A DNA stretch of 19,747 nt from positions 1-19,747 of the forward strand of contig NZ_NMWV01000009.1 in the NCBI RefSeq assembly GCF_002860405.1, written 5' to 3'. Shown here in pieces: positions 1 through 18,991 of the stretch. Numbering within the stretch: the first letter of the stretch is position 1; every line of letters starts with the position of its first letter. The stretch comes from Bifidobacterium imperatoris. Lineage in GTDB: Bacteria > Actinomycetota > Actinomycetes > Actinomycetales > Bifidobacteriaceae. The position numbers and the translations under genes are program-made. Below the pieces are notes generated by a model. It was not told the origin of the DNA and did no database searches. It saw only the letters and a list, made by a program, of their open reading frames with translations.

Positions 1-2
1 CG

Positions 3-421: not shown

Positions 422-454
422 TCGTGACCGACTTAACAAGGCCTGAGATTTGAG

Positions 455-2521
455 TTATCGTGCCGTCACAATGACCTGATACGGAGCCAATGTGCAGTCA
501 GATTCCAGCACGGCATCGTGAGCCAGCAAATCGGCGGCACCAGACAGGGCCGGCAATGCAACCTGCTGTTCACGGTCGGTCAGGTTGATGACGAATGTAA
601 ACACTCGGCCATCATCCGCATATCGTTCGGCAACTTCGACGCCATCCGGGGTAGAGATCGAAGCCAAGCCTGCAGCATCCACTATCGGCTGTACCAACGC
701 ATCCATGCCGGGCTCGCTCAGCGGAGTGCCCACATAGTAAGCCTCACCCTTGCCAAACGTGTTCACGGTAACGGCTGGCGTACCGGCATAGAATTCGCTG
801 CCTCCATAGGTGGCGAGCGCACGGGCGCCTTCCAGATGCATGATGCTGGCCACGATTTCGCCGCTTGCCTCTACTGCGCCCGCGGCTGCAGCAGCCTCCG
901 CACCAAACGACACTGGGATCGTCTCCCCCGGTGCCATCGCGTCAATTTCCTCAGCCCGGACGCCGACGAGCGCACGGAACGGACCGGGGTAACCGCCCGG
1001 AATCACCAGATCATGCTCGTCGTGAATGCCGGACATGTAGCCGGTGATGAATCGCCCGCCATCGCGCACATATGATTCAACGGCTTCGGCAACGCCGGGC
1101 TTGACCATGATCAGCGTCGGTGCCGCCACAATGGCGTAACGGGCGAGTTCGGCTGCTGGCGTGGTGCTGGGGATGATATCCACGGCAAGTCCGCGACGGT
1201 TGAATGCACGGTAGAAGCGGTGCACTTCGTCCGGGTAGGAGAAGCCGGCGATGGGTCCCACGCAGCCTTCCAGCGACCAGTAGCTTTCCCAGTCGAACAT
1301 GACGGCCACATGTGCGCGCACTTCGGAGCCCATAATCTGCGGTGCGATATTCTCGAGTGCTTCGCCAAGCGCCGAAGTCTCACGGAATACGCGGGATTCC
1401 TCAGTGCCATCGTGTGCGATCACGGCCCCGTGGAAGCGTTCACAGCCGCCCAGGGACTGCCGCATTTGGAAGAACTGCACGGTATCCGCGCCATGCGCCA
1501 CGGCCTGCCAGCTCAATGCGGCCACCTCGCCGGGGCGCTTGACCTTGCAGTACGGGAACCAATTCTGCTGGTTCGGCGTCTGTTCCATCAGCATGAACGG
1601 TTTGCCGCCGCCCACGCCACGCATCAGATCGTGGTTCAGGGCCACGCGGCTTGCCGGCATGCCCATGCCCGGGTAATTATCCCAGCTGATCACGTCCATT
1701 TCTGGACCCCATGTGAAGTAGTCGAGGTCTTTGAACGTGCCCATCAGATTCGTGGTGATGGGCGTGATGGCATCGAACCGGCGCACGGCGTCGCGCTCGT
1801 TCGTAAAGCATGCCAGCTGGGATTCGTTCTGGAATCGGCGATAGTCGATGAGCAGCCCGGAGATTACACACTTCCTCGGATCCCAGTCGGATCCGATGCC
1901 GTCGCCGTAGCCGACCGGTGGCACAATATCGGCCCAATCCACAATGGTGTGGCTCCAGAAGTTCGCGCACCATGCTTTGTTGAGCGCCTCAAGAGTGCCG
2001 TACTTGGCCTTGAGCCATGTGCGGAATGCTTCAGCGCAGGTTTCGCAGTAGCATAGGCCGCCGCCTCCGCCGTATTCGTTGCCGATATGCCAAGCCTTCA
2101 AGCCTTCAGTACCGGCGTATCGTTCGGCAATCTTGCCGGCGAGTTTGCCGGCAACCGCACGGAAGTAGGCAGAGTTCGGGCAGAAGTTATGGCGTCCGCC
2201 GAATACATGGCGCTGGCCTTCGAACGTAGTGCGAATGATTTCAGGATGTTCGCGCACCATCCATGCAGGCAATGCGGCGGTGCCTGTGGCGAACACGATG
2301 TTGAAGTGATGCTTGACCAGCAATGCCACGATCTTGTCAAGCATCGTGAAATCGTAGGTCTCCTCGCCTGGCTGTAGGAGCGTCCAGGAGAACACATTGA
2401 TGGTTGCCTCATTGATGTGCGCGTCCTCGAGCATGTCGAGATCGCGTTCCCATGTTTCCTCGGGCCATTGTTCCGGATTCCAGTCGCCGCCGAAGAGGAA
2501 CGTGTCGAATAAAGGTGTCAT
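455..2521 (-). CDS. GH42 family beta-galactosidase (or alpha-L-arabinopyranosidase)
   Basis: 688 residues, the usual length for GH42, with no signal peptide, so cytoplasmic. The N-terminus has the family signature GGDWNPEQWPEETWERD (about 11-27). The acid/base glutamate is E149 in HIGNEYGG and the nucleophile glutamate is E313 in MLMEQTPN. Four cysteines, C114, C157, C159 and C162, have the spacing of the structural zinc cluster of thermophilic GH42 enzymes. The (beta/alpha)8 domain is followed by a GATase-like trimerisation domain (about 395-610) and a small beta domain ending in LAPYQVIV. GH42 enzymes retain the anomeric configuration and remove terminal beta-galactose; some bifidobacterial members instead prefer alpha-L-arabinopyranose. 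The start ATG has AAAAGGAG a few bases upstream. It is the last gene of the GH31-GH43-GH42 unit, so galactose removal from plant side chains is the favoured role. Family call is secure, substrate is inferred. Confidence 0.93.
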   Translation of the reverse strand: MTPLFDTFLFGGDWNPEQWPEETWERDLDMLEDAHINEATINVFSWTLLQPGEETYDFTMLDKIVALLVKHHFNIVFATGTAALPAWMVREHPEIIRTTFEGQRHVFGGRHNFCPNSAYFRAVAGKLAGKIAERYAGTEGLKAWHIGNEYGGGGGLCYCETCAEAFRTWLKAKYGTLEALNKAWCANFWSHTIVDWADIVPPVGYGDGIGSDWDPRKCVISGLLIDYRRFQNESQLACFTNERDAVRRFDAITPITTNLMGTFKDLDYFTWGPEMDVISWDNYPGMGMPASRVALNHDLMRGVGGGKPFMLMEQTPNQQNWFPYCKVKRPGEVAALSWQAVAHGADTVQFFQMRQSLGGCERFHGAVIAHDGTEESRVFRETSALGEALENIAPQIMGSEVRAHVAVMFDWESYWSLEGCVGPIAGFSYPDEVHRFYRAFNRRGLAVDIIPSTTPAAELARYAIVAAPTLIMVKPGVAEAVESYVRDGGRFITGYMSGIHDEHDLVIPGGYPGPFRALVGVRAEEIDAMAPGETIPVSFGAEAAAAAGAVEASGEIVASIMHLEGARALATYGGSEFYAGTPAVTVNTFGKGEAYYVGTPLSEPGMDALVQPIVDAAGLASISTPDGVEVAERYADDGRVFTFVINLTDREQQVALPALSGAADLLAHDAVLESDCTLAPYQVIVTAR

Positions 2522-2539
2522 GCGATGCTCCTTTTGCCG

Positions 2540-2564
2540 CCGGCTCCCCTTTTGAGGGAGCCGG
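2540..2564 (-). other. Intercistronic stem-loop between GH43 and GH42 genes
   Basis: The arms CCGGCTCCC (2540-2548) and GGGAGCCGG (2556-2564) are perfectly complementary around a 7-nt loop. On the minus strand the stem lies just before the GH42 ribosome binding site and is followed by CGGCAAAAGG, not by a U-tract. It therefore looks more like an RNA processing or stability element, or a weak attenuator, than a strong intrinsic terminator. Confidence 0.6.
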
Positions 2565-2575
2565 GCAGAATTGTG

Positions 2576-4114
2576 TTACTGCTGCACGCTGTAGTGCACG
2601 TTGTTGAAGGTGATGTTGCCTTGGCCGTGTGCATAGACGCCGAGCAGGATGCCGGTGAAGCCGCCTGCGTTGGTGAAGCTCAGCAGTTTGCCCGGCACAT
2701 GGCCGAGCAGTTGCTCGCCGCCCGCGAATGCACTGGTGTTGGCCACGGCGAAGTCATATCCTGATTCGTCGCCGCGCACAATCAAGCGCAGTTTGGCGCT
2801 TGCCGGCACAGCTACAGTACCAACTATGGTGGCAAGTCCGGCGTTGTGAGCCGTGGCTTTGACGCGAATCAATCCGTTGGCATCGGATGCGCGCACTGCG
2901 ATGGTTAGGTAGTGGTGACTGTTGGCGTATACGGCAACACCTGCTTCACCGAGGGACAGTGCTCGGGCATCCGCCAATGTTGCGCCGAATTCGAAACGCA
3001 GGTCGGTCTGGCGAGTGCCGATCATCGGTGCACCGTGGGTCAGATCGAATGATTGTGCGGCTGCATGCACGGTAATGGTCGCGTTATTGGTGGTAGCCGG
3101 CGCCATTGCATGACCGGACGATACGATGTACTGCTTGTCTGAATCGATGCCGGGAGTAATCCATTCAACATCTGATTCCAGTGAATCATTGTGACCGTTG
3201 AGGTCGCAGTCGTATGACTGATCGGCCAGCTCAGGCCAGCCATCCTTCCAATCGAACCAGACGGCGTACGGTTCGCGGCCGACCCAGCCTTGGGCTGGGT
3301 ATTCGTTGTTGTTGCGGGTGCCGTGGAATACCATCAGCGTGCGATCGTCTTCAAAATGCGCGCAATCGCAGTGACCGATGGCCTGCAGGGTCAGATGGGT
3401 GGAACGGTTGGTGATCAGCGGATTGCCCGGATACATCTCGTACGGGCCAGTCGGATTGTTGGAACGCGCGATGTTTTCCATATGCCCGGATTCGGTGCCA
3501 CCTTCTGCCCACATCAGATAGTAGGTGTCGCCGCGCTTGTACATGTGCGGGCCTTCCGGATTGGAACCGGTGATACCGCCACAGATGCGCTTACGCTTGG
3601 TCAGCACCGTTCCGGTGGTGACGTCGATTTTCGATAGGTAGATACCGGCTGGCTCGCGTTCGCCGTTCTCATCCGGCTCCCCGCCTTCGTTGCCACAGAT
3701 GTAGGCGGTGCCATCGTCGTCGAAGAACAGGCTCGGGTCGATGCCGGGCCAGCCTTCCACCCAGATGGGATCCGACCAGCCGGCGTGTGGATCAGTTGAG
3801 GTGAGAATCATGTTGCCGGTGTTCACGTTGGTCACGATGAGGTAGTAGATGCCATCGTGGTAGCGCAAGGTGGGCGCATAAATGCCCTGGCTGTTGTCCA
3901 TCGTCTCGTACGGGAACTGCTCGGGGCGGTTCATCGCGTCGCCGATCTTGTGCCAGTGTTCGCCGTCTTCGGATTCGAAAACCGGGAGCCCTGGGAAGAA
4001 TTCGAACGAGCTGTTGACCATCAGGTATGTTCCCTGCGGGGTTTCGCAGATGGTGGGGTCCGGGTGGAATCCGGAGGCGATGCGCCGTGCCGGCTTAACG
4101 TTGAACAGGGTCAT
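2576..4114 (-). CDS. GH43 family beta-xylosidase / alpha-L-arabinofuranosidase
   Basis: 512 residues without a signal peptide. The five-bladed propeller catalytic domain (about 10-320) shows the three GH43 acidic residues: the general base D19 in SGFHPDPTIC, the pKa-modulating D126 in GIDPSLFFDDDGTAYICG, and the general acid E188 in SNPEGPHMYKRG. A C-terminal beta-sandwich of the beta-xylosidase C-terminal (concanavalin-like) type occupies roughly 325-512, as in the two-domain exo-acting GH43 subfamilies. The family inverts and cleaves terminal xylose or arabinofuranose. Beside a GH31 alpha-xylosidase-like enzyme, arabinofuranose removal from xylosyl side chains is an attractive role, but xylosidase activity cannot be excluded. 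It sits between GH31 and GH42 in the same transcription unit, with stable hairpins in both gaps. The start ATG follows AAAGGTAG. Confidence 0.88.
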   Translation of the reverse strand: MTLFNVKPARRIASGFHPDPTICETPQGTYLMVNSSFEFFPGLPVFESEDGEHWHKIGDAMNRPEQFPYETMDNSQGIYAPTLRYHDGIYYLIVTNVNTGNMILTSTDPHAGWSDPIWVEGWPGIDPSLFFDDDGTAYICGNEGGEPDENGEREPAGIYLSKIDVTTGTVLTKRKRICGGITGSNPEGPHMYKRGDTYYLMWAEGGTESGHMENIARSNNPTGPYEMYPGNPLITNRSTHLTLQAIGHCDCAHFEDDRTLMVFHGTRNNNEYPAQGWVGREPYAVWFDWKDGWPELADQSYDCDLNGHNDSLESDVEWITPGIDSDKQYIVSSGHAMAPATTNNATITVHAAAQSFDLTHGAPMIGTRQTDLRFEFGATLADARALSLGEAGVAVYANSHHYLTIAVRASDANGLIRVKATAHNAGLATIVGTVAVPASAKLRLIVRGDESGYDFAVANTSAFAGGEQLLGHVPGKLLSFTNAGGFTGILLGVYAHGQGNITFNNVHYSVQQ

Positions 4115-4142
4115 GATTCTACCTTTATTGCAAAGTCTTATT

Positions 4143-4180
4143 GGTTCCCCTCAGTCACCTTGCGGTGGCTGAGGGGAACC
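4143..4180 (-). other. Strong intercistronic stem-loop between GH31 and GH43 genes
   Basis: A 17-nt left arm (4143-4159) pairs with a 17-nt right arm (4164-4180) with a single mismatch. Read on the coding (minus) strand the loop is GCAA, a GNRA tetraloop, closed by a C-G pair, which favours an RNA structure on this strand. The downstream sequence is AATAAGACTTTGC, without a continuous U-run. It probably acts in mRNA processing, 3' protection of the GH31 message or partial attenuation. Confidence 0.7.
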
Positions 4181-4197
4181 ATGTTGTTATTCGCCGA

Positions 4198-6237
4198 TCA
4201 GAAGGCCAGCGGATCGGAGCCGGGGCGAACCAGTACGGGCAGGGTGTGGTAGTCGTACTGTTCGGTGTACCAGCGGCCCGGCTCATAGGTCTTACCGGTC
4301 AGCAGGTTGGCCCATGCCTCACCAGCGTGGTCACCACCAGCATCCGGCACGTAGAAGCGAGCGGTGCCATCTTCGGAGAACACCGGCGCCACGAGCAAAT
4401 CATCACCCAGCATGTACTGGGTATCGATGTCTTCGCAGGCCGGGTCGGTCGGGAACTCAAGCACCATTGCGCGCATCATCGGCACGCCGGTCTCATGGGT
4501 TTCCTTGGCCATAGCTTCCAGATACGGCTTGAGCTTGAGCTTGAGCTCGGTGAACTCGCGGGAGACCTCCACAGCCTCGTCACCATACAGCCACGGCACC
4601 TTGTATTCGGTGGAACCGTGGTAGCGGGAGTGAGAGGAGAGCAGACCGAACTGGGTCCAACGCTTGAACAGATCCGGGGTCGGCTTGTCTTCGAAACCGG
4701 CGATGTCGTGGCTCCAGTAGCCGAAGCCGGACATGCCAAAGCTCAGACCGGCACGCAGGGATTCGGCCATAGACGGGTAGTTGGAGGAGCAGTCGCCACC
4801 CCAATGCACCGGGAACTGCTGGCCGCCCACGGTGGCGGAACGAGCGAACAGGATTGCCTCATCCTTGCCCTTGGTTTCCACCAGCACGTCGTACACAGCC
4901 TTGTTGTACAGGTAGGTGTAGTAGTTGTGCATCAGCTCGGGGTCGGAACCATCGTAGTACTGCACACCCTCGGTGGGGATACGCTCGCCGAAGTCGGTCT
5001 TGAAGCAATCGACGCCCTGAGCCACGAGGTGCTTGAGCTTGTCCTGGTACCACTTGGTGGCTTCGGGGTTGGTGAAGTCCACGATGGCCATGCCGGCCTG
5101 CCACTTATCCCATTGCCAAACGTCGCCGTCCGTGGTCTTGATGAAGTAGCCCTTCTTGGCGCCTTCCTCGAACAACGGGGACTTCTGGCCGATGTAGCTG
5201 TTGATCCACACGCACACCTTCAGGCCGCGTTCGTGCAGCTTGGCGAGCAGGCCTTCCGGATCGGGGAACTTGGTTTCATCCCACTCGAAGTTGCACCATT
5301 CGAGTTCCTTCATCCAACGGCAGTCGAAGTGGAACACGGACAGTGGAATATTGCGCTTGGCCATGCCGTCGACGAATTCCATCACGGTCTTTTCGTCGTA
5401 GTCGGTGGTGAAGGAGGTGGAGAGCCACAGGCCGTAGCTCCAGTCCGGCACCAGCGGCGGCTTGCCGGTCAAATCAGTGTAGGTGTTGAGAATGCCCTTC
5501 AGGTCCTTACCACCGATAACCGAGTAGCTCATCTCTTCGCCGGGCACGGAGAACTGCACACGGGAGACCTTCTCGGAGCCGATTTCGAAGCTGACCTTGC
5601 CGGGGTTGTCGACGTAGAGGCCGTAACCCTTGTTGGACAGGTAGAACGGAATGTTCTTGTAAGCCTGCTCGGTGCCGGTGCCGCCATCCTCGTTCCAGAT
5701 GTCAACAGTCTGGCCGTTCTTGACGAAGTTGGTGAAGCGCTCGCCCAAGCCGTAAATCTTCTCGCTGACGCCGAGATCCAACTGCTCGGAAACGTGCAGA
5801 CGGCCTTCCAGATCGGTCACGAGGCCCTTGGCACGCCAACCGGAGTGAGCGATGACCTTGCCGTCGTAAACATACTTGAAGTCGATGGTCTCGCCCTTGG
5901 AGATTTCCAGCGTCAGCTTGCCGGAAGTGAAGGACCACTTGTCATCGTCCTCGGTAATGGTGACGTTCGGGTCGGATTCGTTGAGCGCGAACTTCGGGCA
6001 GTGGCTGCGATCCTTCTTGAAGTTGATGAGCCTGGTGGTGATGATATCTTCACGCGGGCTGGTGACTTCGATGGTCAGAATGCCGCCGTCCAGGGTCTGG
6101 CCGGGGTGATGAATCGGCACACCGAACGGGCAGAACAGGGTGAGCTTCTTCTCTTCGACGTTCGCCGTGTACACATTGGCCGCGTACTTGACGTCGAAGC
6201 CGTCTTTGACAAGCCAGCCACCATTGAGGAACTTCAT
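4198..6237 (-). CDS. yicI: GH31 family alpha-xylosidase-like enzyme (YicI type)
   Basis: 679 residues, no signal peptide. It can be aligned by eye along its length with E. coli YicI, a retaining alpha-xylosidase acting on isoprimeverose and xyloglucan oligosaccharides. The nucleophile is D415 in FKTDFGERIPT and the acid/base is D482 in HWGGDC. Other conserved blocks are GLGERFTN (163-170), FHFDCRWMKE (302-311), VCVWINSYIGQKSP (341-354) and DKWQAGMAIVDFTNP. F276 and C306 match xylose-binding residues of YicI, but the neighbouring phenylalanine (F308 in YicI) is R307 here, so sugar preference at subsite -1 may differ. It is the first gene of the second transcription unit, behind a 22-bp operator, with AAGGAG eight to nine bases before the ATG. 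Family call is secure; alpha-xylosidase is the best specificity guess, alpha-glucosidase the main alternative. Confidence 0.92.
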   Translation of the reverse strand: MKFLNGGWLVKDGFDVKYAANVYTANVEEKKLTLFCPFGVPIHHPGQTLDGGILTIEVTSPREDIITTRLINFKKDRSHCPKFALNESDPNVTITEDDDKWSFTSGKLTLEISKGETIDFKYVYDGKVIAHSGWRAKGLVTDLEGRLHVSEQLDLGVSEKIYGLGERFTNFVKNGQTVDIWNEDGGTGTEQAYKNIPFYLSNKGYGLYVDNPGKVSFEIGSEKVSRVQFSVPGEEMSYSVIGGKDLKGILNTYTDLTGKPPLVPDWSYGLWLSTSFTTDYDEKTVMEFVDGMAKRNIPLSVFHFDCRWMKELEWCNFEWDETKFPDPEGLLAKLHERGLKVCVWINSYIGQKSPLFEEGAKKGYFIKTTDGDVWQWDKWQAGMAIVDFTNPEATKWYQDKLKHLVAQGVDCFKTDFGERIPTEGVQYYDGSDPELMHNYYTYLYNKAVYDVLVETKGKDEAILFARSATVGGQQFPVHWGGDCSSNYPSMAESLRAGLSFGMSGFGYWSHDIAGFEDKPTPDLFKRWTQFGLLSSHSRYHGSTEYKVPWLYGDEAVEVSREFTELKLKLKPYLEAMAKETHETGVPMMRAMVLEFPTDPACEDIDTQYMLGDDLLVAPVFSEDGTARFYVPDAGGDHAGEAWANLLTGKTYEPGRWYTEQYDYHTLPVLVRPGSDPLAF

Positions 6238-6281
6238 TGTTACGTCTCCTTCATTGCGAGTACGTTGTGTTGAAATTTATC

Positions 6282-6303
6282 TTATTTATAAGTCTATAAA
6301 TAA
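6282..6303. promoter_or_regulatory. 22-bp palindromic operator, copy 1 (GH31 unit promoter)
   Basis: TTATTTATA-AGTC-TATAAATAA has perfect 9-bp arms around a 4-bp spacer. It lies about 45 bp upstream of the GH31 start codon. On the minus strand it contains TAGACT and TATAAA, either of which could be the -10, so bound protein would cover the promoter. The same palindrome recurs at 14862-14883 and 14986-15007. The binding protein is not identifiable in the window; the TTATTT...AAATAA outline recalls ROK-family (NagC/Mlc/XylR) sites, but this is only a resemblance. Confidence 0.8.
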
Positions 6304-6362
6304 CCAATTTCGACACGCCAGTGCTGTACTAACTGAGGCATAAATACCGCAATAGACATGAA

Positions 6363-6405
6363 AAGGCCTGCCGCAGATTGCACTGAGCAATCCACAGCAG
6401 GCCTT
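6363..6405 (-). terminator. Intrinsic terminator of transcription unit 1 (after GH3)
   Basis: The outer arms AAGGCCTGC (6363-6371) and GCAGGCCTT (6397-6405) are perfectly complementary and enclose a second stem, GATTGC/GCAATC (6376-6381 with 6387-6392). On the minus strand the hairpin starts about 15 bases after the GH3 stop codon and ends in CCTTTTC. It separates the transporter-to-GH3 unit from the GH31 promoter. Confidence 0.75.
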
Positions 6406-6420
6406 GATATTGCTGAGATT

Positions 6421-8646
6421 TCAGGCGGTGATAGCCATGCCGTCTTGAGTTCGATCGGAATCCGCAGCCTTACATGCGGCAAGGAAGCCGGTCAGTCGAA
6501 TATCCGCCACTGATTCGCCAATGTACACATGGGCAGCCGATGCAAGGGCATATGCTTCCGACTCGTTGGACCAGTAGCGAAGCGCACGAGCGGCATCGAG
6601 CGCCAGTTCAACCTGGTGGCTTTCACCCGGCTGCAGTTCGACCTTCGTGAATCCACGCAATTCCTTAACCGGGCGGCACTCACCGGTACCTTCAAGACCG
6701 AAGTACACCTGCGGCACGGCTTTGCCGGCTCGCTTGCCGGTATTGGTCACCGTGAAGGCCACATGCACTGCGCCATCCACGAGTCGCACATCGCATGCGC
6801 TGTAGTCGAACGTGGTGTATCCCAAGCCATGACCGAACGGGAAGAGCACTGGAGCATGCTCAGTCTCATAGTGGCGGTAGCCCACAAAAATATCCTCGTC
6901 GTAGCGCACATGAAGGCCAGGGCCGAATGTACCGATGGAATGCGCTGGACTGTCTTCCAGAGCAATCGGGAACGTTTCGGGCAGGTGACCGCTCGGGTTC
7001 ACACGGCCAAGCAGGGTTTCGGCAAGCGCGGTGCCGGATTCGCATCCGTTGTACCAGTTCCAGACGATGGCGCGAGCGCGATCGGCCCACGGCATAGCCA
7101 CCGGAGAGCCGGCCACGAACACCAAGATCGTATTCGGATCAGCTTCGAGCAGTGCTTCAATCAGCTCATCCTGGCCATAGGGCAGCTGCAGGTTCTCACG
7201 GTCGCGGCCTTCAAGATCGTATTCGTGGTCAAGTCCGCCTACGAAGATTACCGGATCACCGGAGGCTGCGTATTCGCGAGCCAGGGATACGGCTTCCTCA
7301 CGCAGACGAGCGGCACGTTCGGCATCATCGGTGGCGGAACCGACCGAGTTCTCCAAGCTGTCTTCCTGCCAGGAATCATCCTGCACCACCTGCTTGGCGT
7401 CATAGCCGAGCGCGTATTCGATTTCCACGTTGCCGCCGAGCTGTCCGTTCAGACCCAAGATCGGGGTCACTTCGTGCAGCGCCTTGATGACAGCGCTGCC
7501 ACCACCGCTGGAGTGGATGCGGTCGGCGTTTGCGCCAACGACCAGCACGCGGCGCATCGCATGCTCATCAAGCGGCAGTAGCGTATGGCCTTGGGCATCA
7601 GCCTCGTTCTTCAGCAGCACGATGGATTCGCGCGCCACGTCCAGTGCAGCCTGAGCGTGTGCGAGCGTGGCATACGAGCCGGGCTTGCGGGATCGCGGAG
7701 CGTTCACCGCATCGCCATGCTCGTCCTGTGCCGGCAGCATGTGCAGCGCATCCATCACGGCAAGCACGCGCAATACCTTGGCATCGATATCCGCTTCGTC
7801 AACTTCGCCATCCTTCACCGCCTTGCGCAACGGGTTCGCGAAGTAATACTCATCGAAGTTCGGCGTCACGGACATCTCCACGTCCAGGCCCACGCGAGCG
7901 CTGGCCACCGTGCGCTTGACGGCGCTCCAGTCGGAGACCACGAAGCCGCGGAAGCCCCATTCGTCGCGCAGAATATCGTCCAGCAGACGCTTGGATTCGC
8001 AGCACTGCTCACCGTTGACGAGGTTGTATGCGCCCATCAAGGACAGCACGCCACCGCGCTTGACCACATCCTCGAATGCGGGCAGGTAGATTTCGCGCAA
8101 TGCTCGCTCGCTGATGGTCTCATCGACTTCCAAGCGATCGGTTTCCTGGCTGTTGGCCGCATAATGCTTGGCGCAGGCAGCCACATCGGATTCCTGCACA
8201 CCTTTGACGAAGGCCACGCCCTGTTCACCGGTCAGATAAGGGTCTTCGCTCATGTATTCGAAGTTGCGGCCGCACAGCGGGCTGCGCTTGATGTTGATAG
8301 AGGGGCCGAGAATCACATCCTTGCCGCGGCCTCGGGCCTCAGATCCCAGCACTTGGCCGGCCTTGTGCGCCAGCTCACGGTTCCAGGTAGATGCCACTGC
8401 GGAACCGGAGGGCAGGTAGGTGACGCGATCGCGGGTGTTATAGAGCGGAGCCCAGTTGTCATTGTGCAATTCCTCGCGCGGACCCATCGGGCCGTCGTCC
8501 ATTTTGAACGGCGGAATGCCCAGTCGCGGCACGCCTTCGGTGCGGAAGAGACCGGCAGCGTGAATCATGTCGACTTTTTCGTCCAACGTAAGCTGGGCGA
8601 GAAGTGCTCGCGCTGTGGCGATATTGGCTTCGGTAATGGCAGTCAT
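6421..8646 (-). CDS. GH3 family beta-glucosidase (or beta-xylosidase)
   Basis: 741 residues, cytoplasmic (no signal peptide). Domain order is the standard three-domain GH3 form: N-terminal (beta/alpha)8 domain (about 15-310) with RSPLCGRNFEYMSEDP, the K160-H161 substrate-binding pair in AKHYAANSQETDR and the nucleophile D239 in GFVVSDWSAV; an alpha/beta sandwich (about 340-580) with DLEGRDRENLQLP, which should supply the acid/base glutamate; and a fibronectin-III-like domain (about 625-710) with the family's PVKELRGFTKVELQPGE segment. No PA14 insertion is present. GH3 enzymes release non-reducing terminal beta-glucose, xylose or N-acetylglucosamine; the sequence most resembles the beta-glucosidase group. 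In this context it would remove backbone glucose once side chains are gone. It is the last gene of unit 1 and has GAAGGAAA before the ATG. Confidence 0.92.
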   Translation of the reverse strand: MTAITEANIATARALLAQLTLDEKVDMIHAAGLFRTEGVPRLGIPPFKMDDGPMGPREELHNDNWAPLYNTRDRVTYLPSGSAVASTWNRELAHKAGQVLGSEARGRGKDVILGPSINIKRSPLCGRNFEYMSEDPYLTGEQGVAFVKGVQESDVAACAKHYAANSQETDRLEVDETISERALREIYLPAFEDVVKRGGVLSLMGAYNLVNGEQCCESKRLLDDILRDEWGFRGFVVSDWSAVKRTVASARVGLDVEMSVTPNFDEYYFANPLRKAVKDGEVDEADIDAKVLRVLAVMDALHMLPAQDEHGDAVNAPRSRKPGSYATLAHAQAALDVARESIVLLKNEADAQGHTLLPLDEHAMRRVLVVGANADRIHSSGGGSAVIKALHEVTPILGLNGQLGGNVEIEYALGYDAKQVVQDDSWQEDSLENSVGSATDDAERAARLREEAVSLAREYAASGDPVIFVGGLDHEYDLEGRDRENLQLPYGQDELIEALLEADPNTILVFVAGSPVAMPWADRARAIVWNWYNGCESGTALAETLLGRVNPSGHLPETFPIALEDSPAHSIGTFGPGLHVRYDEDIFVGYRHYETEHAPVLFPFGHGLGYTTFDYSACDVRLVDGAVHVAFTVTNTGKRAGKAVPQVYFGLEGTGECRPVKELRGFTKVELQPGESHQVELALDAARALRYWSNESEAYALASAAHVYIGESVADIRLTGFLAACKAADSDRTQDGMAITA

Positions 8647-8669
8647 GCTGTATTTCCTTCTTCAATACT

Positions 8670-8692
8670 GCGGTACGCGACAATGCGACCGC
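8670..8692 (-). other. Short stem-loop in the GH29-GH3 gap
   Basis: GCGGT (8670-8674) pairs with ACCGC (8688-8692), with a possible inner CGC/GCG pairing. It falls in the 52-bp gap between the fucosidase and beta-glucosidase genes. It is short, lacks a U-tract, and could be fortuitous. Confidence 0.3.
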
Positions 8693-8698
8693 TGACGG

Positions 8699-10183
8699 CT
8701 ATGCGATGGTGATTTTGAATCCGACTGGTACGCTTGACTCGGTTTCAGTACGCTCGGCGCTGGAGACTGGGGTGATGACCAGCCCGTCGTTAGTGCGCTC
8801 CCACGCCACCGGCCCGGCTCCCAGTTGTTCCACTTCGGTGATGATGCCATGAAACGGTGCACGGATGCCGTCATGGTAAGCGGCGAATGTGGCGCTGGTG
8901 AGCGTGGCAGCACCGGCCGGGTTGAGGCAGAAGGCGTATACGTTGCCGTCTTTGGCGGTGAATCGCCAGTCGGCGGCCGTGTATTCGATGGCCGTCTGAT
9001 CAGCGAACGAACCTTCGGCGGCGCGCGTGGGGCCTTCTTCGGCAATCCGCCACGGGCGCGTATCGTAAATGCCTTCACCGTTGGTGTCCATCCAGCGACC
9101 GATGGATTCCAGCAGCTCACGGTCGCGTGGAGCGATCGAACCATCGGCGCGCGGGCCCACATTGAGCAGCAGATTGCCATTCTTGCTCACGGTGTCCACG
9201 AGGGTCACGATGAGTTCGGAGAGGTTCTTGTAGTCGAGCGAGTTCGTGTAGCACCATGAATTGCGCGCAATAGCGGTGTCGGTCTGCCATACATATGGGG
9301 TCGCGGTGGACAGGCCGCCGCGTTCCACGTCGAACAGGCCGGCGCCCCAAGCCATGCCGTCGTCTTTGTAGCAGATGATGACCGGCACACCCCATTCCAC
9401 GCCGCGGTTGTAATAGAACGCGGCGAGGCGTTTGATGTATGGCTTGAATACGTTGTGCTGAATCCACCAGTCGAAATACAGCATCTCTGGGCGGTAGTTG
9501 TCGATGAGCTCGCACACGCGCAGCAGCCAGTCGTCGAGGAACTCGTCGTCGGGCTTCGGCACGGAGAACAGGTCCTGATTGTCCGGCTCCGGGTTGGCAG
9601 GCCAGTAGAAACCGCCTTTGGCATCCGCTTCGGCACCTTGCACATCGGAGTCGAAGTCGCGGCCGTGCCCCATAAACCACCAGTGTTCGGCACGATGGTT
9701 GGAGGTGGCGAAATGCAGACCATGCTGCAAGGTGGCTTCGCGCAGTTCGCCGATGATGTCACGATGCGGGCCGGTTTCCACCGTGTTCCAATGCGAGAGC
9801 TCGCTGCGGTACATCTGGTAGCCGTCGTGATGTTCGGACACCGGGAAGTAGTATCGTGCGCCGGCTTTGGCGAACAGGTCGAGCCATTCGTCTGCGTTGA
9901 ATCGTTCGGCGGTGAACATCGGAATAAAGTCTTTGTACCCGAATTCGGACTGCGGCCCGAAAGCGGCGCGATGATGATCGAATTCCGGGTAGCCTTCGAT
10001 ATACATGTTGCGCGAATACCATTCGTTGCGGTATCCGGGCACGGTGTAAAGCCCCCAATGGGTGAAGATGCCGAACTTGGCATCCGGAAACCATGCCGGC
10101 ACCTGCACGTGGGACAGGGACTGCCAAGTGGGATCGTAGGGGCCTTGCGCGATCACGCGATCAATGGTGTTCAAATCAATCAT
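8699..10183 (-). CDS. GH29 family alpha-L-fucosidase
   Basis: 494 residues from the chosen start (MIDLNTIDRV). No signal peptide, so it acts on imported oligosaccharides. GH29 landmarks are FPDAKFGIFTHWGLYTVP and NEWYSRNMY near the N-terminus, the HHDGYQMYRSELSHWNT block, SNHRAEHWW, and the nucleophile aspartate D238 in MLYFDWWIQ; a beta-sandwich C-terminal domain follows GNLLLNVGPRADG. The enzyme retains configuration and removes terminal alpha-L-fucose. An ATG 30 bp further upstream (10213) is in frame, but the start at 10183 has AGGAG eight bases before it and overlaps the esterase stop by 8 bp, typical of translational coupling. Located between an esterase and a GH3 enzyme and in one regulon with GH42 and GH31, it would uncap fucose before galactose and xylose can be removed. 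Linkage preference (alpha-1,2 or otherwise) cannot be read from sequence. Confidence 0.93.
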   Translation of the reverse strand: MIDLNTIDRVIAQGPYDPTWQSLSHVQVPAWFPDAKFGIFTHWGLYTVPGYRNEWYSRNMYIEGYPEFDHHRAAFGPQSEFGYKDFIPMFTAERFNADEWLDLFAKAGARYYFPVSEHHDGYQMYRSELSHWNTVETGPHRDIIGELREATLQHGLHFATSNHRAEHWWFMGHGRDFDSDVQGAEADAKGGFYWPANPEPDNQDLFSVPKPDDEFLDDWLLRVCELIDNYRPEMLYFDWWIQHNVFKPYIKRLAAFYYNRGVEWGVPVIICYKDDGMAWGAGLFDVERGGLSTATPYVWQTDTAIARNSWCYTNSLDYKNLSELIVTLVDTVSKNGNLLLNVGPRADGSIAPRDRELLESIGRWMDTNGEGIYDTRPWRIAEEGPTRAAEGSFADQTAIEYTAADWRFTAKDGNVYAFCLNPAGAATLTSATFAAYHDGIRAPFHGIITEVEQLGAGPVAWERTNDGLVITPVSSAERTETESSVPVGFKITIA

Positions 10184-10853
10184 CGAAGGTGCTCCTATTC
10201 CAATCGAAACCAACAGCCTGACACCATGAACGGGCGATAATCATTGCGCCGCGTTCGTATGGGTGTACGCGATCCTGGCTGGCCAGGCAACCGTGCAGTT
10301 GGGTGAGCCAGTGGTCCACCGCCGCTTGCGTGTCCACGAAGATTGCATTGTGCTTTTCGGCCATACGCTTTGATGCCGCGGCGAATTCTTCGATTTTGGC
10401 GCGCATCTGGTCTTGCGGATTCGGCTCGAACATGAACGGACGCATGATGATAATGCCTTTGAGCTCCGGCAGGGATTCCTTGGTGCGTTCGAGCAGTTCA
10501 TCGTAAATGCGCTCGAAATCCTCCACGGTATTGAGGCGAGCCTGCCATAGCGGTCCGTCGAAGTACCGCCATGCATCATTGACGCCGACCATCACGGAAA
10601 CATAGTCCGGCTTCAAATCGATGACATCCTGCTGCCAGCGTTCGGACAATGCCACGATGTCGTCGCCGCTGATGCCGGAATTGATGGTGCACAATGCACG
10701 ATCGGGGTAGACGGCGGTAAGCAGGTTGTGCAGAGCGTTCACATAGCCGGTGCCGTAGCCCCAACCGCCCGGGATGGCAGTACGGTCGCGACCGGCATCG
10801 GTAATGGAATCACCCATGAACACGATGCGAGAATGTTTCGGGAAAATCAGCAT
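10176..10853 (-). CDS. SGNH/GDSL hydrolase, probable carbohydrate acetyl esterase
   Basis: 225 residues, no signal peptide. The SGNH blocks are complete: S16 in FMGDSITDAG (block I), the block II glycine in NSGISGDD (around 58-65), N92 in GVNDAW (block III), and D194/H197 in DRVHP (block V). This is the fold of lysophospholipase/rhamnogalacturonan acetylesterase-type enzymes; cytoplasmic members inside glycosidase operons commonly remove O-acetyl groups from oligosaccharides. Here the gene follows the sugar-binding protein and its last 8 bases overlap the start of the fucosidase gene, suggesting joint action on acetylated, fucosylated side chains. The ribosome binding site is weak. The broad esterase family is certain; the acetylated sugar as substrate is inferred from context. 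Confidence 0.88.
   Translation of the reverse strand: MLIFPKHSRIVFMGDSITDAGRDRTAIPGGWGYGTGYVNALHNLLTAVYPDRALCTINSGISGDDIVALSERWQQDVIDLKPDYVSVMVGVNDAWRYFDGPLWQARLNTVEDFERIYDELLERTKESLPELKGIIIMRPFMFEPNPQDQMRAKIEEFAAASKRMAEKHNAIFVDTQAAVDHWLTQLHGCLASQDRVHPYERGAMIIARSWCQAVGFDWNRSTFDD
10192..10196 (-). promoter_or_regulatory. Ribosome binding site deciding the GH29 start
   Basis: AGGAG on the minus strand is followed by an 8-base spacer and the ATG at 10183. The alternative upstream ATG (10213) has no comparable site and would extend the protein into sequence that is not part of the GH29 fold. Confidence 0.75.
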
Positions 10854-10881
10854 GATGATCGCTTTCGGTTTCAGATATGAG

Positions 10882-10921
10882 ATTGCGCGACGGCCCGGAA
10901 GGAGCGGGGCCGCCGCGCAAT
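10882..10921 (-). other. Strong intercistronic stem-loop between binding-protein and esterase genes
   Basis: A 15-nt arm (10882-10896) pairs with a 15-nt arm (10907-10921) around a 10-nt loop. The single irregular position is A-C on the plus strand but G-U on the minus strand, so the structure is fully paired only in the transcript of the operon. No U-tract follows. This position, directly after a solute-binding protein gene, is typical of 3' stabilising or partial termination hairpins that raise binding-protein level over the downstream genes. Confidence 0.75.
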
Positions 10922-10953
10922 GAGAGAGGGCCTGTTATGAGGGGATTACCTCA

Positions 10954-12711
10954 TCACTTGGAGGCTTCGTACTGCTTGACGACCTCCTGGCGGGCCTTGA
11001 TCCAGTCCTTGGCGTTCTGCTGGTCAACCTTCAGCACGCTGTCGTAACCGAGATCCTTGACCTGCTGGCGAGCGTCCTTGAGCACCTTGGTGAACTCGGA
11101 GTCGGACTTGGCCACCAGAGCGTTCCAGGAAGCGTTGACAACCTCGGTCTTGATGGAGCTACGGGTTGCGGAAACCGTGGACTCTTCCTGCGGAGTGGTG
11201 TAGGAGGCACCCGGAGCCACAGCGAGCAGGTTGTTCTTCTGGAGGTAGTCGATATCGCTGGTGGCGCCGCCCATGTGCTCGGACCAATCCTGGAACAGAG
11301 CGGAGGTGTCGGCCTCGGACTCCCACAGCTGCGGGTTGAATGCAGCACCGGTCTCGGAGTCGATGTCGTTCTGCTGCACGGCCTTGAAGTTCAGCAGGGA
11401 GAAGCCGGAGTCGTAAGTGCCGCCGCCGAGCTTGTCGGAGATCTTGAGGTTGGCGTGGTCGCCGTTCATGGCCTGCTTGCCGAAGTCGGTGAGCTGAGGC
11501 TTGCCATCCTCGCCCTCGGTCCAGCAGCCCAGATCCTTCGGGCAAGCGGCACCGCCGGCGTTGGAAGCGGCAGCGTACACACCGTCAGAGGAGTACAGCC
11601 AATCGATGAACTTGGCGATGCGTTCCTTGTACTTGGACTTGGATCCAATGGCGATGATGGTGGAACCGTCGCCGTCCGGGGTGAAGCCGGTGGAGTAGAC
11701 CTTCATGGACTGCAGCGGAGCGAGCATGAAGCCCACACCCTTGGCCTTGTTCTCATCGGAGTTCATACGCGGCTTGCCCAGCCAGCTGAAGATGGAGACT
11801 AGGGTCTTGCCGTTGGTCACCTTGTTCTGCATGGTGTCCCAATCCTGAGTGGTGGATTCAGGATCGACCAGGCCCATCTGATCGGCCTTGTTGAGGAAAT
11901 CGAGAGCCTGCTCGTAGACGCCGCCCTCCTGGGTGGCCGGCTGAACATCCTTGCCATCAGCGCTCACGAACACAGAGCCCTGGTTCTGGTAGCCGAGCCA
12001 GTTGACGATGGCGGAAGCGTTGTTCATCACGTCGCCATCCCAATCCTTGAACAGGGAGAAGGCGTAGATATCATCCTGGCCGGTTTCCTTGCGGGCCAGA
12101 TCCTGCATGTTCTTCAGCACGTCGAGGAAGGAATCGAGATCCTTGATCTCCGGGTAGCCGAGCTCCTTGTAGTACTCCCAGCGGATGTACGGAGCGGAAG
12201 TGGGCTCCATGCCTTCGCTCGGGCTGGACGGATCAGAGGAGGAGACGCCCTGCGGGATGCCCCACACGCCATCCTTGCCGGCCTGCTTGGTCACGGAATC
12301 GACAGCGTTCTGGTACTTCTTGACGTTGGTCATCTTGCCGTAGTACGGGGTCATATCGGCAACCAGGTTGGCCTTGACCAGCTTCTGCAGACGGCCGTTG
12401 CCGGTGCTGGTGATAATCAGATCACCCAGGGAGCCAGAGGCTGCGCGGGTATCGAAGACGGTGTCGCCACCGGAGACGTTCGGAGCAATGATGTTGAGCT
12501 TCAGGTTGAACTTGTCCTGAACGATCTTGGCGAACCAGCCCTTCTGTTCGCCCTGCTGGTTGGCCAGAGAGTCGAACACGTCGATAGTGACCAATGAGCC
12601 ATCATCCTTGGCATCGGCTGCGGTATCGCCACCGCAAGCGGCCAGCGAGAACGTCATCGCCGCGGCCAGGCCAACGGCCAGCACCGAGGTGAGCTTCTTC
12701 TTGATTTCCAT
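10954..12711 (-). CDS. ABC transporter extracellular sugar-binding lipoprotein (LplA type)
   Basis: 585 residues. The N-terminus is a lipoprotein signal: positive MEIKKK, a hydrophobic stretch, and the lipobox LAAC with the lipidated cysteine at position 26, followed by a Gly/Asp/Ala-rich linker. The mature protein has the organisation of large family-1 solute-binding proteins of the LplA type, for example SLGDLIITSTGNGRLQKLVKANLVADMTPY early and SIFSWLGKPRMNSDENK in the middle. It would be anchored outside the membrane and capture oligosaccharides for the two permeases encoded immediately upstream. The gap to the permease gene is 70 bp and contains a strong AAGGAGG ribosome binding site. The large size fits an oligosaccharide ligand rather than a monosaccharide. 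Ligand identity is inferred from the hydrolases, not from binding residues. Confidence 0.92.
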   Translation of the reverse strand: MEIKKKLTSVLAVGLAAAMTFSLAACGGDTAADAKDDGSLVTIDVFDSLANQQGEQKGWFAKIVQDKFNLKLNIIAPNVSGGDTVFDTRAASGSLGDLIITSTGNGRLQKLVKANLVADMTPYYGKMTNVKKYQNAVDSVTKQAGKDGVWGIPQGVSSSDPSSPSEGMEPTSAPYIRWEYYKELGYPEIKDLDSFLDVLKNMQDLARKETGQDDIYAFSLFKDWDGDVMNNASAIVNWLGYQNQGSVFVSADGKDVQPATQEGGVYEQALDFLNKADQMGLVDPESTTQDWDTMQNKVTNGKTLVSIFSWLGKPRMNSDENKAKGVGFMLAPLQSMKVYSTGFTPDGDGSTIIAIGSKSKYKERIAKFIDWLYSSDGVYAAASNAGGAACPKDLGCWTEGEDGKPQLTDFGKQAMNGDHANLKISDKLGGGTYDSGFSLLNFKAVQQNDIDSETGAAFNPQLWESEADTSALFQDWSEHMGGATSDIDYLQKNNLLAVAPGASYTTPQEESTVSATRSSIKTEVVNASWNALVAKSDSEFTKVLKDARQQVKDLGYDSVLKVDQQNAKDWIKARQEVVKQYEASK

Positions 12712-12781
12712 GACGGAAACCTCCTTGTTTCTTTTTCCTTTGTTGTCTGTTGAAGTTTGATTATGTAGTTGAAGGTCTCAA

Positions 12782-13702
12782 TCAGCCTTTAACCGCACCC
12801 AGCATCATGCCCTTGACGAAGAAGCGCTGGAAGAACGGGTAGACGAACATGATCGGCAGCACCACGATGACGGAGACGGTCATACGAATCGAGGTCGGGG
12901 TAGCGGCGGAAGCCAGGGCGGCCACGTTCGCGGCGTTCGCCTTAGCGGCGTTGGCCAAGGCGCTGGCCTGGTTGATGTACGTGTACAGCAGGTACTGCAG
13001 GGAGTAGAGCTTGTCGTCGGTCATGTAGATCAGCGTGTCCTGGAAGGAGTTCCACTGGCCGACTGCGGAGAAGATGGCGACCGTGGCCAGGATCGGCGTG
13101 CACATCGGCAGCACGATCTTGCCGAAGATCGTCAGCGTACCAGCGCCATCCATTTCGGCGGCTTCCTGCAGGGAGTTCGGAATCGACTCGATGTAGGTCT
13201 TCACCAGGATGATGTTGAACGGCTGCACCACTGCCGGCAGGATGTACACCCAGAAGTTGTTGGTCAGGCCGAGGTTCTTCATCGTGATGAACATCGGGAT
13301 CAAGCCGGCGTTGAAGTACATGGTGATGACCACGAAGCGGTACCAGAACGAACGTGCCCACATCTTCTTCTGCGTGAACATGAAGCCCAGGTAGGCGCTG
13401 GCGAGCACGGTCAGCACTGTACCGATCACGGTACGGGCCAGGGAGATCCATGCCGCGCGGCCAAGGCCGGAGAGCGCCAGCACATCCTTGTAGTTCTGCA
13501 GATGGAAGCCCTTGAACCACCAGGTCACCTCGCCCGCTGCGGACAGATTGTTATCAGACAGCGAGTTGATGATCAGGTAGTAGAACGGGTAGGTGCAGAT
13601 CAGTGCGAACACTGACAGCAGCACGATGTTGAATACGTTGTAGACTTTCTCACCCGTGGTGCGACGCATCGCCGGCGAGACACTTGACTTCTGCTTTGCC
13701 AT
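12782..13702 (-). CDS. ABC transporter permease, YtcP/MalG type
   Basis: 306 residues with about six predicted membrane segments, the first at about 22-46 and the last at about 275-292. The cytoplasmic EAA loop is clear: LQEAAEMDGAGTLTIFGKIVLP (from about 178), which docks on the ATPase. It belongs to the carbohydrate (CUT1) permeases found paired with LplB-type partners. An alanine-rich segment (about 246-268) lies in the last periplasmic-side loop just before the final membrane segment and looks low in complexity; its function is not known to me. The ATG follows AAGGAAC. The gene lies 41 bp after the other permease and 70 bp before the binding-protein gene. No ATPase gene is present in the cluster, so it presumably uses a shared MsmK-type ATPase. 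Confidence 0.92.
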   Translation of the reverse strand: MAKQKSSVSPAMRRTTGEKVYNVFNIVLLSVFALICTYPFYYLIINSLSDNNLSAAGEVTWWFKGFHLQNYKDVLALSGLGRAAWISLARTVIGTVLTVLASAYLGFMFTQKKMWARSFWYRFVVITMYFNAGLIPMFITMKNLGLTNNFWVYILPAVVQPFNIILVKTYIESIPNSLQEAAEMDGAGTLTIFGKIVLPMCTPILATVAIFSAVGQWNSFQDTLIYMTDDKLYSLQYLLYTYINQASALANAAKANAANVAALASAATPTSIRMTVSVIVVLPIMFVYPFFQRFFVKGMMLGAVKG

Positions 13703-13743
13703 GATTGTTCCTTAATAAATCTCGCGTGACTTTGCTTGGCCGA

Positions 13744-14784
13744 TCAGACGATGCCCTCGCCGCGGGTGCGCTTGGACAGCCAGTTGACGATGAAGAGCAG
13801 GGCGACGGAGACCAGCGACTTCAGGATGGAGATCGCGGTACCCAGAGACAGGCTGGAGTTGCCGAGACCGACGTTGTAGACGTACAGGTCGAGCACTTCG
13901 ATCCACTTCTGGTTGAAGTTGTTCTGGAACACGTAGTACTGGTCCATACCGTTGTTCAGGAAGTTGGAGATGGAGAGCATGAGCAGCACGAAGTAGGTGG
14001 GTAGCAGCTGCGGGATGGTCACATGCCAGATTTGCTGGAAGCGGTTGGCGCCATCCACCTGTGCGGCTTCATACAGTTCCTGATCGATGCCAGCGATGCC
14101 TGCGAGGTACATGATGGAACCCCAGCCGAGGCCCTTCCACAGGTTCCACAGCAGCATCTTGAGCCAGATGTGATCACCGGAATCAAGGAACTTGATTGGC
14201 TCGGTGATCAGGTGCAGGTTCTGCAGCAGCTCGTTGATCATGCCGGAGGAGGAGAACATCGCGAAGGCGATGGAGTAAACCAGCACCCAGGAGATGAAGT
14301 TCGGCAGCGTGGTGAGCGTCTGAATCAGGTTCTTGAACCACTTTGCGCGAATCTCGTTCAGGGCGATGGCGAAGATCACCGGGAAGAACGAGGTCAGGAT
14401 GTTCAAGCCGGACATGGCGAAGGTGTTCATCAACACCTGACCGATCTTGGCCAGCTGAGCCGGGTTCTGCACCAGCAGCTGGAACCATTGCAGGCCCACG
14501 AACTCGCTTTCGGAGAGCGGAATCGGCGGCTGGTAATCGTAGAATGCGTAAATCCAGCCGAACAGCGGCAGGTAGCTGAAGAGCACCACCATAACCAACA
14601 GGGGTGCGACCAGCAGGAACAGCTTCAATCCGTGGCGCTTGTTGTAATCAGCGCCGGGAAGCATCTTCTTCGCCTTGTTGGCGGCACGACGATCACGACG
14701 GTTACGCGCTGGCTTAGCGTCGGCAGCTGCGACGTTATCCGCGGCCAACCCGACTTCGCCGTCTGCGGTTGCAACGTTCTGCAT
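13744..14784 (-). CDS. ABC transporter permease, LplB/MalF type
   Basis: 346 residues from the chosen start (MQNVATADGE). An Ala/Asp-rich and then strongly basic cytoplasmic N-terminus (RNRRDRR...KAKK) precedes the first membrane segment LKLFLLVAPLLVMVVLFSYL. Six membrane segments are expected. The EAA loop is YEAAQVDGANRFQQIWHVTIP (EAA at about 239-241). It forms the channel with the YtcP-type permease. An ATG 51 bp upstream (14835) is in frame, but the start at 14784 has AAAGGAG five bases ahead and is preferred. First gene of transcription unit 1, directly behind operator copy 2 and a good promoter. Confidence 0.92.
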   Translation of the reverse strand: MQNVATADGEVGLAADNVAAADAKPARNRRDRRAANKAKKMLPGADYNKRHGLKLFLLVAPLLVMVVLFSYLPLFGWIYAFYDYQPPIPLSESEFVGLQWFQLLVQNPAQLAKIGQVLMNTFAMSGLNILTSFFPVIFAIALNEIRAKWFKNLIQTLTTLPNFISWVLVYSIAFAMFSSSGMINELLQNLHLITEPIKFLDSGDHIWLKMLLWNLWKGLGWGSIMYLAGIAGIDQELYEAAQVDGANRFQQIWHVTIPQLLPTYFVLLMLSISNFLNNGMDQYYVFQNNFNQKWIEVLDLYVYNVGLGNSSLSLGTAISILKSLVSVALLFIVNWLSKRTRGEGIV

Positions 14785-14789
14785 CTTGT

Positions 14790-14796
14790 CTCCTTT
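14790..14796 (-). promoter_or_regulatory. Ribosome binding site deciding the LplB-type permease start
   Basis: AAAGGAG lies five bases before the ATG at 14784 on the minus strand. The two in-frame ATGs further upstream (14835, 14817) have no comparable site. Confidence 0.75.
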
Positions 14797-14861
14797 GAAG
14801 CAATGCAGCGAAGACATTGTCTGGGTGCGACCCATTTCGCAACCCGTTGTCTTCTTGTCTC

Positions 14862-14883
14862 TTGTTTATAAGTTTATAAATAA
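14862..14883. promoter_or_regulatory. 22-bp palindromic operator, copy 2 (transporter unit)
   Basis: TTGTTTATA-AGTT-TATAAATAA differs from perfect symmetry at one arm position. It covers the -10 of the minus-strand promoter at 14871-14899, about 80 bp upstream of the permease start, which predicts repression by occlusion. It shares both the 9-bp arms and the AGTN spacer with copies 1 and 3. Confidence 0.8.
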
Positions 14884-14969: not shown

Positions 14970-14998
14970 TCGACCAATAGAATTTTTATTTATATACT
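14970..14998 (+). promoter_or_regulatory. Promoter of the DUF624 gene
   Basis: TCGACC (14970-14975) and TATACT (14993-14998) are separated by 17 bases. The -10 lies inside operator copy 3. The start codon of the downstream gene is about 65 bp away. Confidence 0.5.
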
Positions 14999-15007
14999 TA
15001 TAAATAA
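14986..15007. promoter_or_regulatory. 22-bp palindromic operator, copy 3 (DUF624 gene)
   Basis: TTATTTATA-TACT-TATAAATAA has perfect 9-bp arms; read on the other strand the spacer is AGTA, matching the AGTN of the other copies. It sits 102 bp from copy 2 in the divergent intergenic region, so each operator serves one direction, though cooperative binding across both is possible. Confidence 0.8.
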
Positions 15008-18990: not shown

Positions 18991-18991
18991 T

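Follow-up and report, generated by a model that had tools for sequence, protein, structure and literature searches.

A gene cluster of Bifidobacterium imperatoris predicted to import and dismantle xyloglucan oligosaccharides, and its putative operator shared with a GH94 gene of related bifidobacteria

We analysed a stretch of 19,747 nucleotides from Bifidobacterium imperatoris (contig NZ_NMWV01000009.1, positions 1 to 19,747; hereafter the window), in which nine co-directional genes occupy the minus strand from 455 to 14784. They encode six hydrolases or esterases, a solute-binding protein (SBP) and two permeases (Table 1). A first-pass annotation made from the sequence alone had named GH29, SGNH, GH42, GH43, GH31 (YicI type) and GH3 enzymes and a CUT1 transporter, and all these families were recovered with Pfam and NCBIfam. 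Its cluster ends also agree with ours: the GH42 stop codon lies at 455 and the likely start of permF is the ATG at 14784, with AGGAG ahead of it. For GH29, the ATG at 10183 was preferred as start over a TTG at 10213. Intergenic gaps range from 41 to 183 bp, and the GH29 and SGNH genes overlap by 8 bp. Neither a transporter ATPase nor, according to Pfam, a two-component regulator was found among the genes of the window. Beyond the DUF624 gene, the cluster is flanked by genes for a DUF6020 protein and a PucR-type regulator (15764-18922).

Table 1. Genes and palindromic sites of the cluster in the window.
Feature	Coordinates	Strand	Evidence and remarks
GH42 beta-galactosidase	455..2521	-	Pfam GH42, 448 bits; predicted removal of galactose from xylose
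GH43 with GH43_C2 domain	2576..4114	-	Pfam; predicted alpha-L-arabinofuranosidase or beta-xylosidase
GH31 YicI-type alpha-xylosidase, 679 aa	4198..6237	-	NCBIfam PRK10658; without the YicI C-terminal part
Palindromic operator (putative) before GH31	6282..6303	.	0 mismatches
GH3 beta-glucosidase	6421..8646	-	Pfam; GH3 beta-glucosidases in PDB
GH29 alpha-L-fucosidase or alpha-L-galactosidase	8699..10183	-	Pfam, 326 bits
SGNH/GDSL acetyl esterase	10176..10853	-	Pfam Lipase_GDSL_2
Lipoprotein SBP, cluster-G fold	10954..12711	-	Modelled fold
CUT1 permease (MalG-like)	12782..13702	-	Pfam; NCBIfam score below cut-off
CUT1 permease (MalF-like, permF)	13744..14784	-	Pfam; NCBIfam score below cut-off
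Palindromic operator (putative) before permF	14862..14883	.	1 mismatch
Palindromic operator (putative) before DUF624	14986..15007	.	0 mismatches
DUF624 membrane protein, divergent	15065..15712	+	Pfam, 55 bits; predicted to be co-regulated

No hydrophobic N-terminus is seen in any of the six enzymes (Kyte-Doolittle maximum 0.26-1.05 over 15 residues), in agreement with the earlier view that all of them are cytoplasmic, at the resolution of a crude Kyte-Doolittle hydrophobicity test rather than of SignalP. By the same measure the SBP has a hydrophobic N-terminus (maximum 2.11), with a lipobox-like LAAC. A script located the catalytic motifs of GH31 and GH29 (Asp/Glu in the latter), and those of the other enzymes were identified by eye in the translations by comparison with known motifs. 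The nearest solved structure of the GH42 protein is the bacterial GH42 3tts. For GH43 it is the beta-xylosidase 5z5d, followed by BoGH43B and BoGH43A, and the structures nearest to the SGNH protein are annotated as acetyl xylan esterases.

The GH31 protein scored 1156 bits against PRK10658, the NCBIfam model of the YicI alpha-xylosidase (cut-off 606), and 834-836 bits against YicI in the PDB. GH31 proteins of the cluster type measure 676-682 aa in all 17 copies compared (rough script lengths), two of which (L092 and L093; G and L numbers are our labels for genomes and loci) come from genomes without the SBP. The motif DCRW occurs in 16 of the 17, the L093 copy not matching the search pattern. 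Longer GH31 proteins, mostly by about 100 residues, are found in four YicI-like paralogues (771, 780, 805 and 725 aa) and in L023, a Lachnospiraceae metagenome-assembled genome (777 aa); the motif reads DCFW in L023 and one paralogue, and DCYW in three paralogues. A second YicI-like GH31 gene (47-48% identity) stands beside the cluster at L029:17057-19219, L032:387-2423 and L033:711-2864, adjoined by distant permease genes (in the L032 case via the overlapping L022).

A sequence search with the SBP gave no relative in the PDB. Its model has the large two-lobed fold common to AlgQ1/2 and FusA (cluster G), and the fold neighbours among the matches listed include FusA, AlgQ1/2 and 5GX8; 9PMY, the structure of Athe_2052, was not among the matches listed. 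According to the available part of the report on Athe_2052, a protein that binds xyloglucan oligosaccharides (XGO), the same three are also its neighbours (PMC12710961). The SBP is thus modelled with a large-ligand cluster-G fold, as reported for a proven XGO binder. Second, related SBP genes were seen near the cluster at G009:C4:27884-31595 and at G002:C32:69761-71689, the latter followed by a perfect palindrome, and the SBP gene of B. felsineum contains an in-frame stop (L017:6293-8047).

Conservation of the gene set was examined in 14 related loci, comprising 11 genome loci and L019, L020 and L021; G024, G037, G043 and G050 (the last two from other genera) and L023 were left out. The transporter, GH29, GH3, GH31 and GH42 are present in 14 of 14, with DUF624 adjoining the transporter, where the GH29 of L021 (B. 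italicum, L021:12079-13582) and the SBP of G028 were matched in two pieces. GH43 (9 loci), SGNH (8) and GH5 (5, with two GH5 genes in G025 and G009) are accessory. Of the nine genes, the transporter and four hydrolases form a constant core, and GH43 and SGNH, although present here, are variable members of the set. Across the genus, a GH29 with an identity of at least 58% was found in 25 of the 26 genomes with the SBP (once split into two frames) and was missing in G030; two of the 13 GH29-matching genomes of the genus, G024 and G037, carry a distant GH29 at 52-53% identity and no cluster. In L023, the permeases, SBP, GH42, GH31 and GH3 are 42-65% identical to those of the window, and two genes between GH42 and GH31 resemble, by eye, a two-component pair. 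A transfer of the cluster between phyla would be a guess.

The genes had been described as lying under a common palindrome, and this palindrome is real. Its 22-bp pattern, TTATTTATA-N4-TATAAATAA, matches three sites in the window when up to 3 mismatches are allowed; 200 shuffles gave no occurrence (expectation 0.00). Genomes matched to B. saguini (G001), B. callitrichidarum (G018) and B. felsineum (G022) each contain four sites at up to 2 mismatches, and the reversed control pattern matched once in G001 and not at all in G018 and G022. Three of the four sites correspond to those of the window, and the fourth lies directly before a GH94 gene. Across the related loci, the interval between permF and DUF624 holds a site at up to 2 mismatches in 13 of 14 and at 3 mismatches in the remaining one, and the site before GH31 (up to 2 mismatches) is present in 8.

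In near relatives, a ROK kinase gene follows GH42, and some 3 to 6 kb separate GH42 from the GH94 gene, which is therefore beyond the extent of the window. In the PDB, the closest matches of the GH94 protein are cellobiose phosphorylases (1081 bits), with chitobiose phosphorylases (375 bits) and cellodextrin phosphorylases (88 bits) scoring much lower. Downstream of GH94, in the same direction, are genes for a BD-FAE-type esterase and a TetR protein (TetR_N found). We surveyed 112 Bifidobacterium genomes with thresholds of more than 300 bits for the SBP, at least 70% identity for GH31, and at least 58% identity and more than 250 bits for TetR. The SBP was found in at least 26 genomes (in several, the best 12 first-look candidates were scored, and matches of 206 bits or less were uncounted), GH31 in 30 (including G073, a partial copy with a stop) and TetR in 32 (excluding copies in G008 and G079 that cover only residues 1-95). 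GH31 lies within 30 kb of the SBP gene in all 26 SBP genomes. TetR is present in 24 of the 26; when its position was compared in 24 genomes, 23 had it no more than 30 kb from GH31, and G130 had the two on different contigs; the carriers of SBP, GH31 and TetR are related species, so that Fisher values overstate their independence. Partly decayed clusters were noticed in G060, G073 and G088; the decayed versions at L083, L087 and L088 keep GH42, ROK, TetR and DUF624 and gave no transporter match.

On this evidence, the cluster is very probably an operon pair with which a B. saguini-like strain of the primate gut imports XGO and dismantles them in the cytoplasm. We favour this reading because of the YicI-type GH31, the GH42, the GH3, the cluster-G SBP, the GH94 operator and the GH5 genes in the clusters of relatives; GH94 under the same operator indicates a beta-1,4-glucan backbone. 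The xyloglucan substrate class proposed in the first-pass annotation is therefore well supported in silico. The analysis shows the genes and their order, the motifs, the palindromes, the co-occurrence and a modelled fold; from these are inferred the substrate of each enzyme, the succession of the steps, repression and the inducer. In the proposed pathway, the lipoprotein and two permeases, served by an ATPase from elsewhere, would take up intact oligosaccharides. In the cytoplasm, GH29 would take off terminal L-fucose (or L-galactose), SGNH acetyl groups, GH42 galactose and, where present, GH43 arabinofuranose. GH31 and GH3 would alternate in rounds, the former acting on exposed alpha-xylose and the latter on exposed glucose, and the last two backbone glucoses, i.e. 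cellobiose, would probably be split by the GH94 enzyme encoded beside the cluster in relatives. The set had earlier been called complete, with nothing needed missing. The latter does not hold, as the window contains neither the backbone step (GH94) nor an ATPase, and "complete" is too strong for a set whose characterised GH42/GH31/GH3 counterpart leaves cellobiose, as described in the accessible text of that study (PMC4780118).

The TetR protein encoded with GH94 probably represses all the promoters of the cluster through the shared palindrome, and a backbone-derived sugar such as cellobiose is a plausible inducer. Two genomes, G033 and G014, have DUF6020 and PucR after the GH94-TetR unit and no xyloglucan genes in between, an arrangement that looks like the same chromosomal place minus the xyloglucan cassette. 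A bolder proposal, which we hold to be possible rather than likely, is that xyloglucan debranching has been wired into a pre-existing cellobiose-phosphorylase switch. On this view, the operator-GH94-TetR unit stands alone in some bifidobacteria, and the cassette, placed between it and DUF6020-PucR and with the same operator as GH94 at its promoters, would be induced by the undecorated backbone product; the cell would sense this end product and not the imported oligosaccharide, and a short, Arg-containing GH31 lineage would be specific to the cassette.

Several observations weigh against the XGO reading or its regulatory part. The GH31 match covers positions 1-666 of the 771 of PRK10658, the C-terminal part being absent, and the protein has Arg at what is presumably the position of Phe in the YicI motif DCFW. 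The SBP fold group includes Blon_2347, deposited as an SBP associated with human milk oligosaccharides; therefore, the fold by itself is not specific to xyloglucan. For this strain, the 19,747-nt window shows no GH94, TetR or ATPase and runs into unrelated sequence beyond GH42. NCBIfam gave no model for the GH94 protein, and one of its top PDB chains is named a lactose phosphorylase (1079 bits). Two SBP-bearing genomes (G030 and G124) lack a close TetR, and the reversed control pattern matched in 4 of the 28 genomes of the palindrome survey described below. The structure nearest to GH29 is BpGH29, an exo-alpha-L-galactosidase (about 402 bits), so that fucose is not assured; GH29 is more distant from the Fusarium graminearum alpha-L-fucosidase 4ni3 (about 213 bits). 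Fucose is nevertheless the likelier sugar to be released by GH29, because a published network assigns BpGH29 to its cluster 2, and xyloglucan fucose is released by fucosidases from that cluster and from cluster 3, according to the part of the paper available (PMC11189522). Finally, strains of B. callitrichos, which may or may not carry the cluster, showed only weak growth on cranberry xyloglucan in the available portion of a further study (mean optical density 0.156; PMC6096940).

Systems for pectin and arabinogalactan, too, contain enzymes of the GH42, GH43, GH29 and SGNH families, and the GH29 is nearest to an L-galactosidase acting on a galactan. The cluster might accordingly serve another fucosylated, acetylated plant side chain of arabinogalactan or pectic type, with GH31 and GH3 acting on side activities. 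We consider this improbable: GH31, GH3, GH42 and GH29 are constant in the related loci and GH43 and SGNH are not, and both the operator shared by GH94 and the GH5 endoglucanases in 5 of the 14 clusters point to a beta-1,4-glucan backbone. An oligosaccharide of xylan type would agree with the nearest structures of SGNH and GH43, the enzymes serving as an acetylxylan esterase and, together with GH3, as xylosidases. Ordinary xylans, however, need no alpha-xylosidase, beta-galactosidase or fucosidase, GH43 is absent from 5 of the 14 loci, and GH94 and GH5 misfit xylan, which makes this target very improbable. Fucosylated arabinogalactan, pectin and xylan were thus all ranked below xyloglucan, given GH94, GH5 and the constant GH31/GH3/GH42 core.

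The palindrome could also be recognised by a different regulator instead of the TetR adjacent to GH94, whose own binding to the site is a prediction from sequence. G063 has a perfect palindrome with none of the searched genes nearby, and in G124 a 2-mismatch site accompanies the cluster; since this genome has no close TetR, the link between TetR and palindrome is imperfect. Nevertheless, TetR accompanies the SBP and GH31 in nearly all the genomes compared above. Moreover, among eight genomes with TetR and no SBP, the palindrome was found in six and the reversed control in one, and in those six it precedes a GH94 gene, which in three of them was matched in pieces, and TetR lies downstream. Among 20 further genomes without a close TetR, it was found in two, one of them G124, against three with a control match. 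We therefore regard a different regulator as unlikely, and keep to the TetR encoded with GH94.

Xyloglucan oligosaccharide utilization of this kind is already known, and a counterpart has been shown experimentally in Ruminiclostridium cellulolyticum (PMC4780118). As far as the available text of that work goes, its Ccel_2451-2458 cluster, like the window, combines signal-less GH42, GH31 and GH3 enzymes with an SBP and two permeases and lacks an ATPase. The GH42/GH31/GH3 set converts XXXG to xylose, glucose and cellobiose, and the authors proposed a cellobiose phosphorylase as the last step; here, cellobiose as an end product is suggested by GH94. The two systems differ in that R. cellulolyticum has a two-component system and cellulosomal endo-enzymes, whereas a TetR gene is found in the relatives here; no GH29, SGNH, GH43 or TetR/GH94 operator wiring is described for Ccel_2451-2458 in that text. 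Within the genus, xyloglucan islands (XG-1) were predicted in 2021 in the marmoset bifidobacteria B. myosotis, B. hapali and MARM_A1 (PMC8406136). Like the window, they hold an alpha-xylosidase, a beta-glucosidase and an alpha-fucosidase for xyloglucan, and in B. myosotis, locus L020 shows synteny with the window, except that it has no GH43. The available part of the XG-1 description mentions neither an operator nor a regulator, and neither a link to GH94 nor the fold of the transporter. The Athe_2052-2054 locus of Anaerocellum bescii shares with the window the cluster-G SBP fold neighbours, CUT1 permeases and a GH31 gene, its GH42 and putative fucosidase having locus tags outside the locus, as reported in the accessible text (PMC12710961); the likeness between the two SBPs is one of fold neighbours and not of direct sequence comparison.

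BgrT regulators of the TetR family were predicted earlier for beta-glucoside genes, some beside a cellodextrin phosphorylase (PMC4746261). They resemble the TetR here in family, in palindromes (18-22 nt for BgrT) and in beta-glucoside genes, a likeness that may or may not extend to orthology and motif identity. The study, in its available part, covers ten genomes, among them neither B. saguini nor the near relatives considered here, and the word xyloglucan is absent from its main text. BpGH29 of Bacteroides plebeius (7ljj, 7snk), the nearest solved relative of the window's GH29 with the catalytic region aligned, acts on the alpha-L-galactose of porphyran, according to the portion of its report available (PMC12316285). 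Unlike BpGH29, the GH29 of the window has a xyloglucan-type cluster context and no hydrophobic N-terminus. Our search of open-licence papers, a coverage outside which most subscription papers fall, found none linking a TetR/GH94 operator to xyloglucan genes and no mention of the truncated GH31 lineage. What is added here is a likely regulon, the cellobiose step and the division into core and accessory genes, all with predicted functions.

The first-pass annotation had noted that no endo-xyloglucanase of GH5, GH12 or GH74 type is present and had suggested scavenging. Indeed, none was found in the window. In six near relatives (G001, G018, G022, G091, G094 and G002), the search covered GH9, GH12, Sortilin-Vps10 and GH44, with GH5 in four of them and GH16 and GH26 outside it. 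It gave no GH9, no GH12 and no match to Sortilin-Vps10, a rough stand-in for GH74, which was not searched proper; GH44 gave zero matches there and in control genomes also, and is hence uninformative. For GH5 (PF00150), the matches in G001, G002, G018 and G022 were all partial and scored 20.8, 24.4, 33.9 and 34.8 bits. Three of these scores exceed the Pfam cut-off of 23.5, but GH5 genes situated in related clusters reach 143-171 bits. In L029, the larger of the GH5 proteins (831 aa, with CBM_X2 and CBM46) stands nearest to GH5 cellulases, and xyloglucan-specific endoglucanases are also among its matches (4w85, 134 bits). Scavenging of oligosaccharides released by other microbes fits, because no endo-enzyme is present in the window and no strong candidate in the near relatives among the families usefully tested; this mode is well supported in silico.

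When 500-base blocks of the window are compared with B. saguini DSM 23967, identity is 95-100% outside 7.5-10.5 kb. Within that tract, identity falls to 86-93% at the sides and to 73-74% at 8.5-9.5 kb, within GH29, where the sequence is closer to B. callitrichidarum and B. miconisargentati (81-89%). This divergence inside an otherwise 95-100% identical region suggests local recombination, with exchange of the GH29 allele. At the left end, positions 1-424 are G+C-rich, with an open frame to approximately 355, and are absent from the B. saguini loci, in which the ROK kinase gene follows GH42. No match to this segment was found in plasmids (translated 3-353), phages, Pfam (frame 2-379) or NCBIfam (frame 3-353). 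On visual inspection, it resembles the terminus of a mobile element.

The substrates with which bifidobacteria are usually associated are milk sugars, starch, arabinoxylan and gums. If the prediction is true, a cytoplasmic xyloglucan set in at least 26 of 112 genomes of the genus would make bifidobacteria partners of endo-degraders on the cell walls of fruits and vegetables. The operator common to the cluster and GH94 turns a guess about the substrate into a testable regulon. Within a single genus, the GH5 genes in the clusters of some relatives would set predicted primary degraders apart from species predicted to scavenge.

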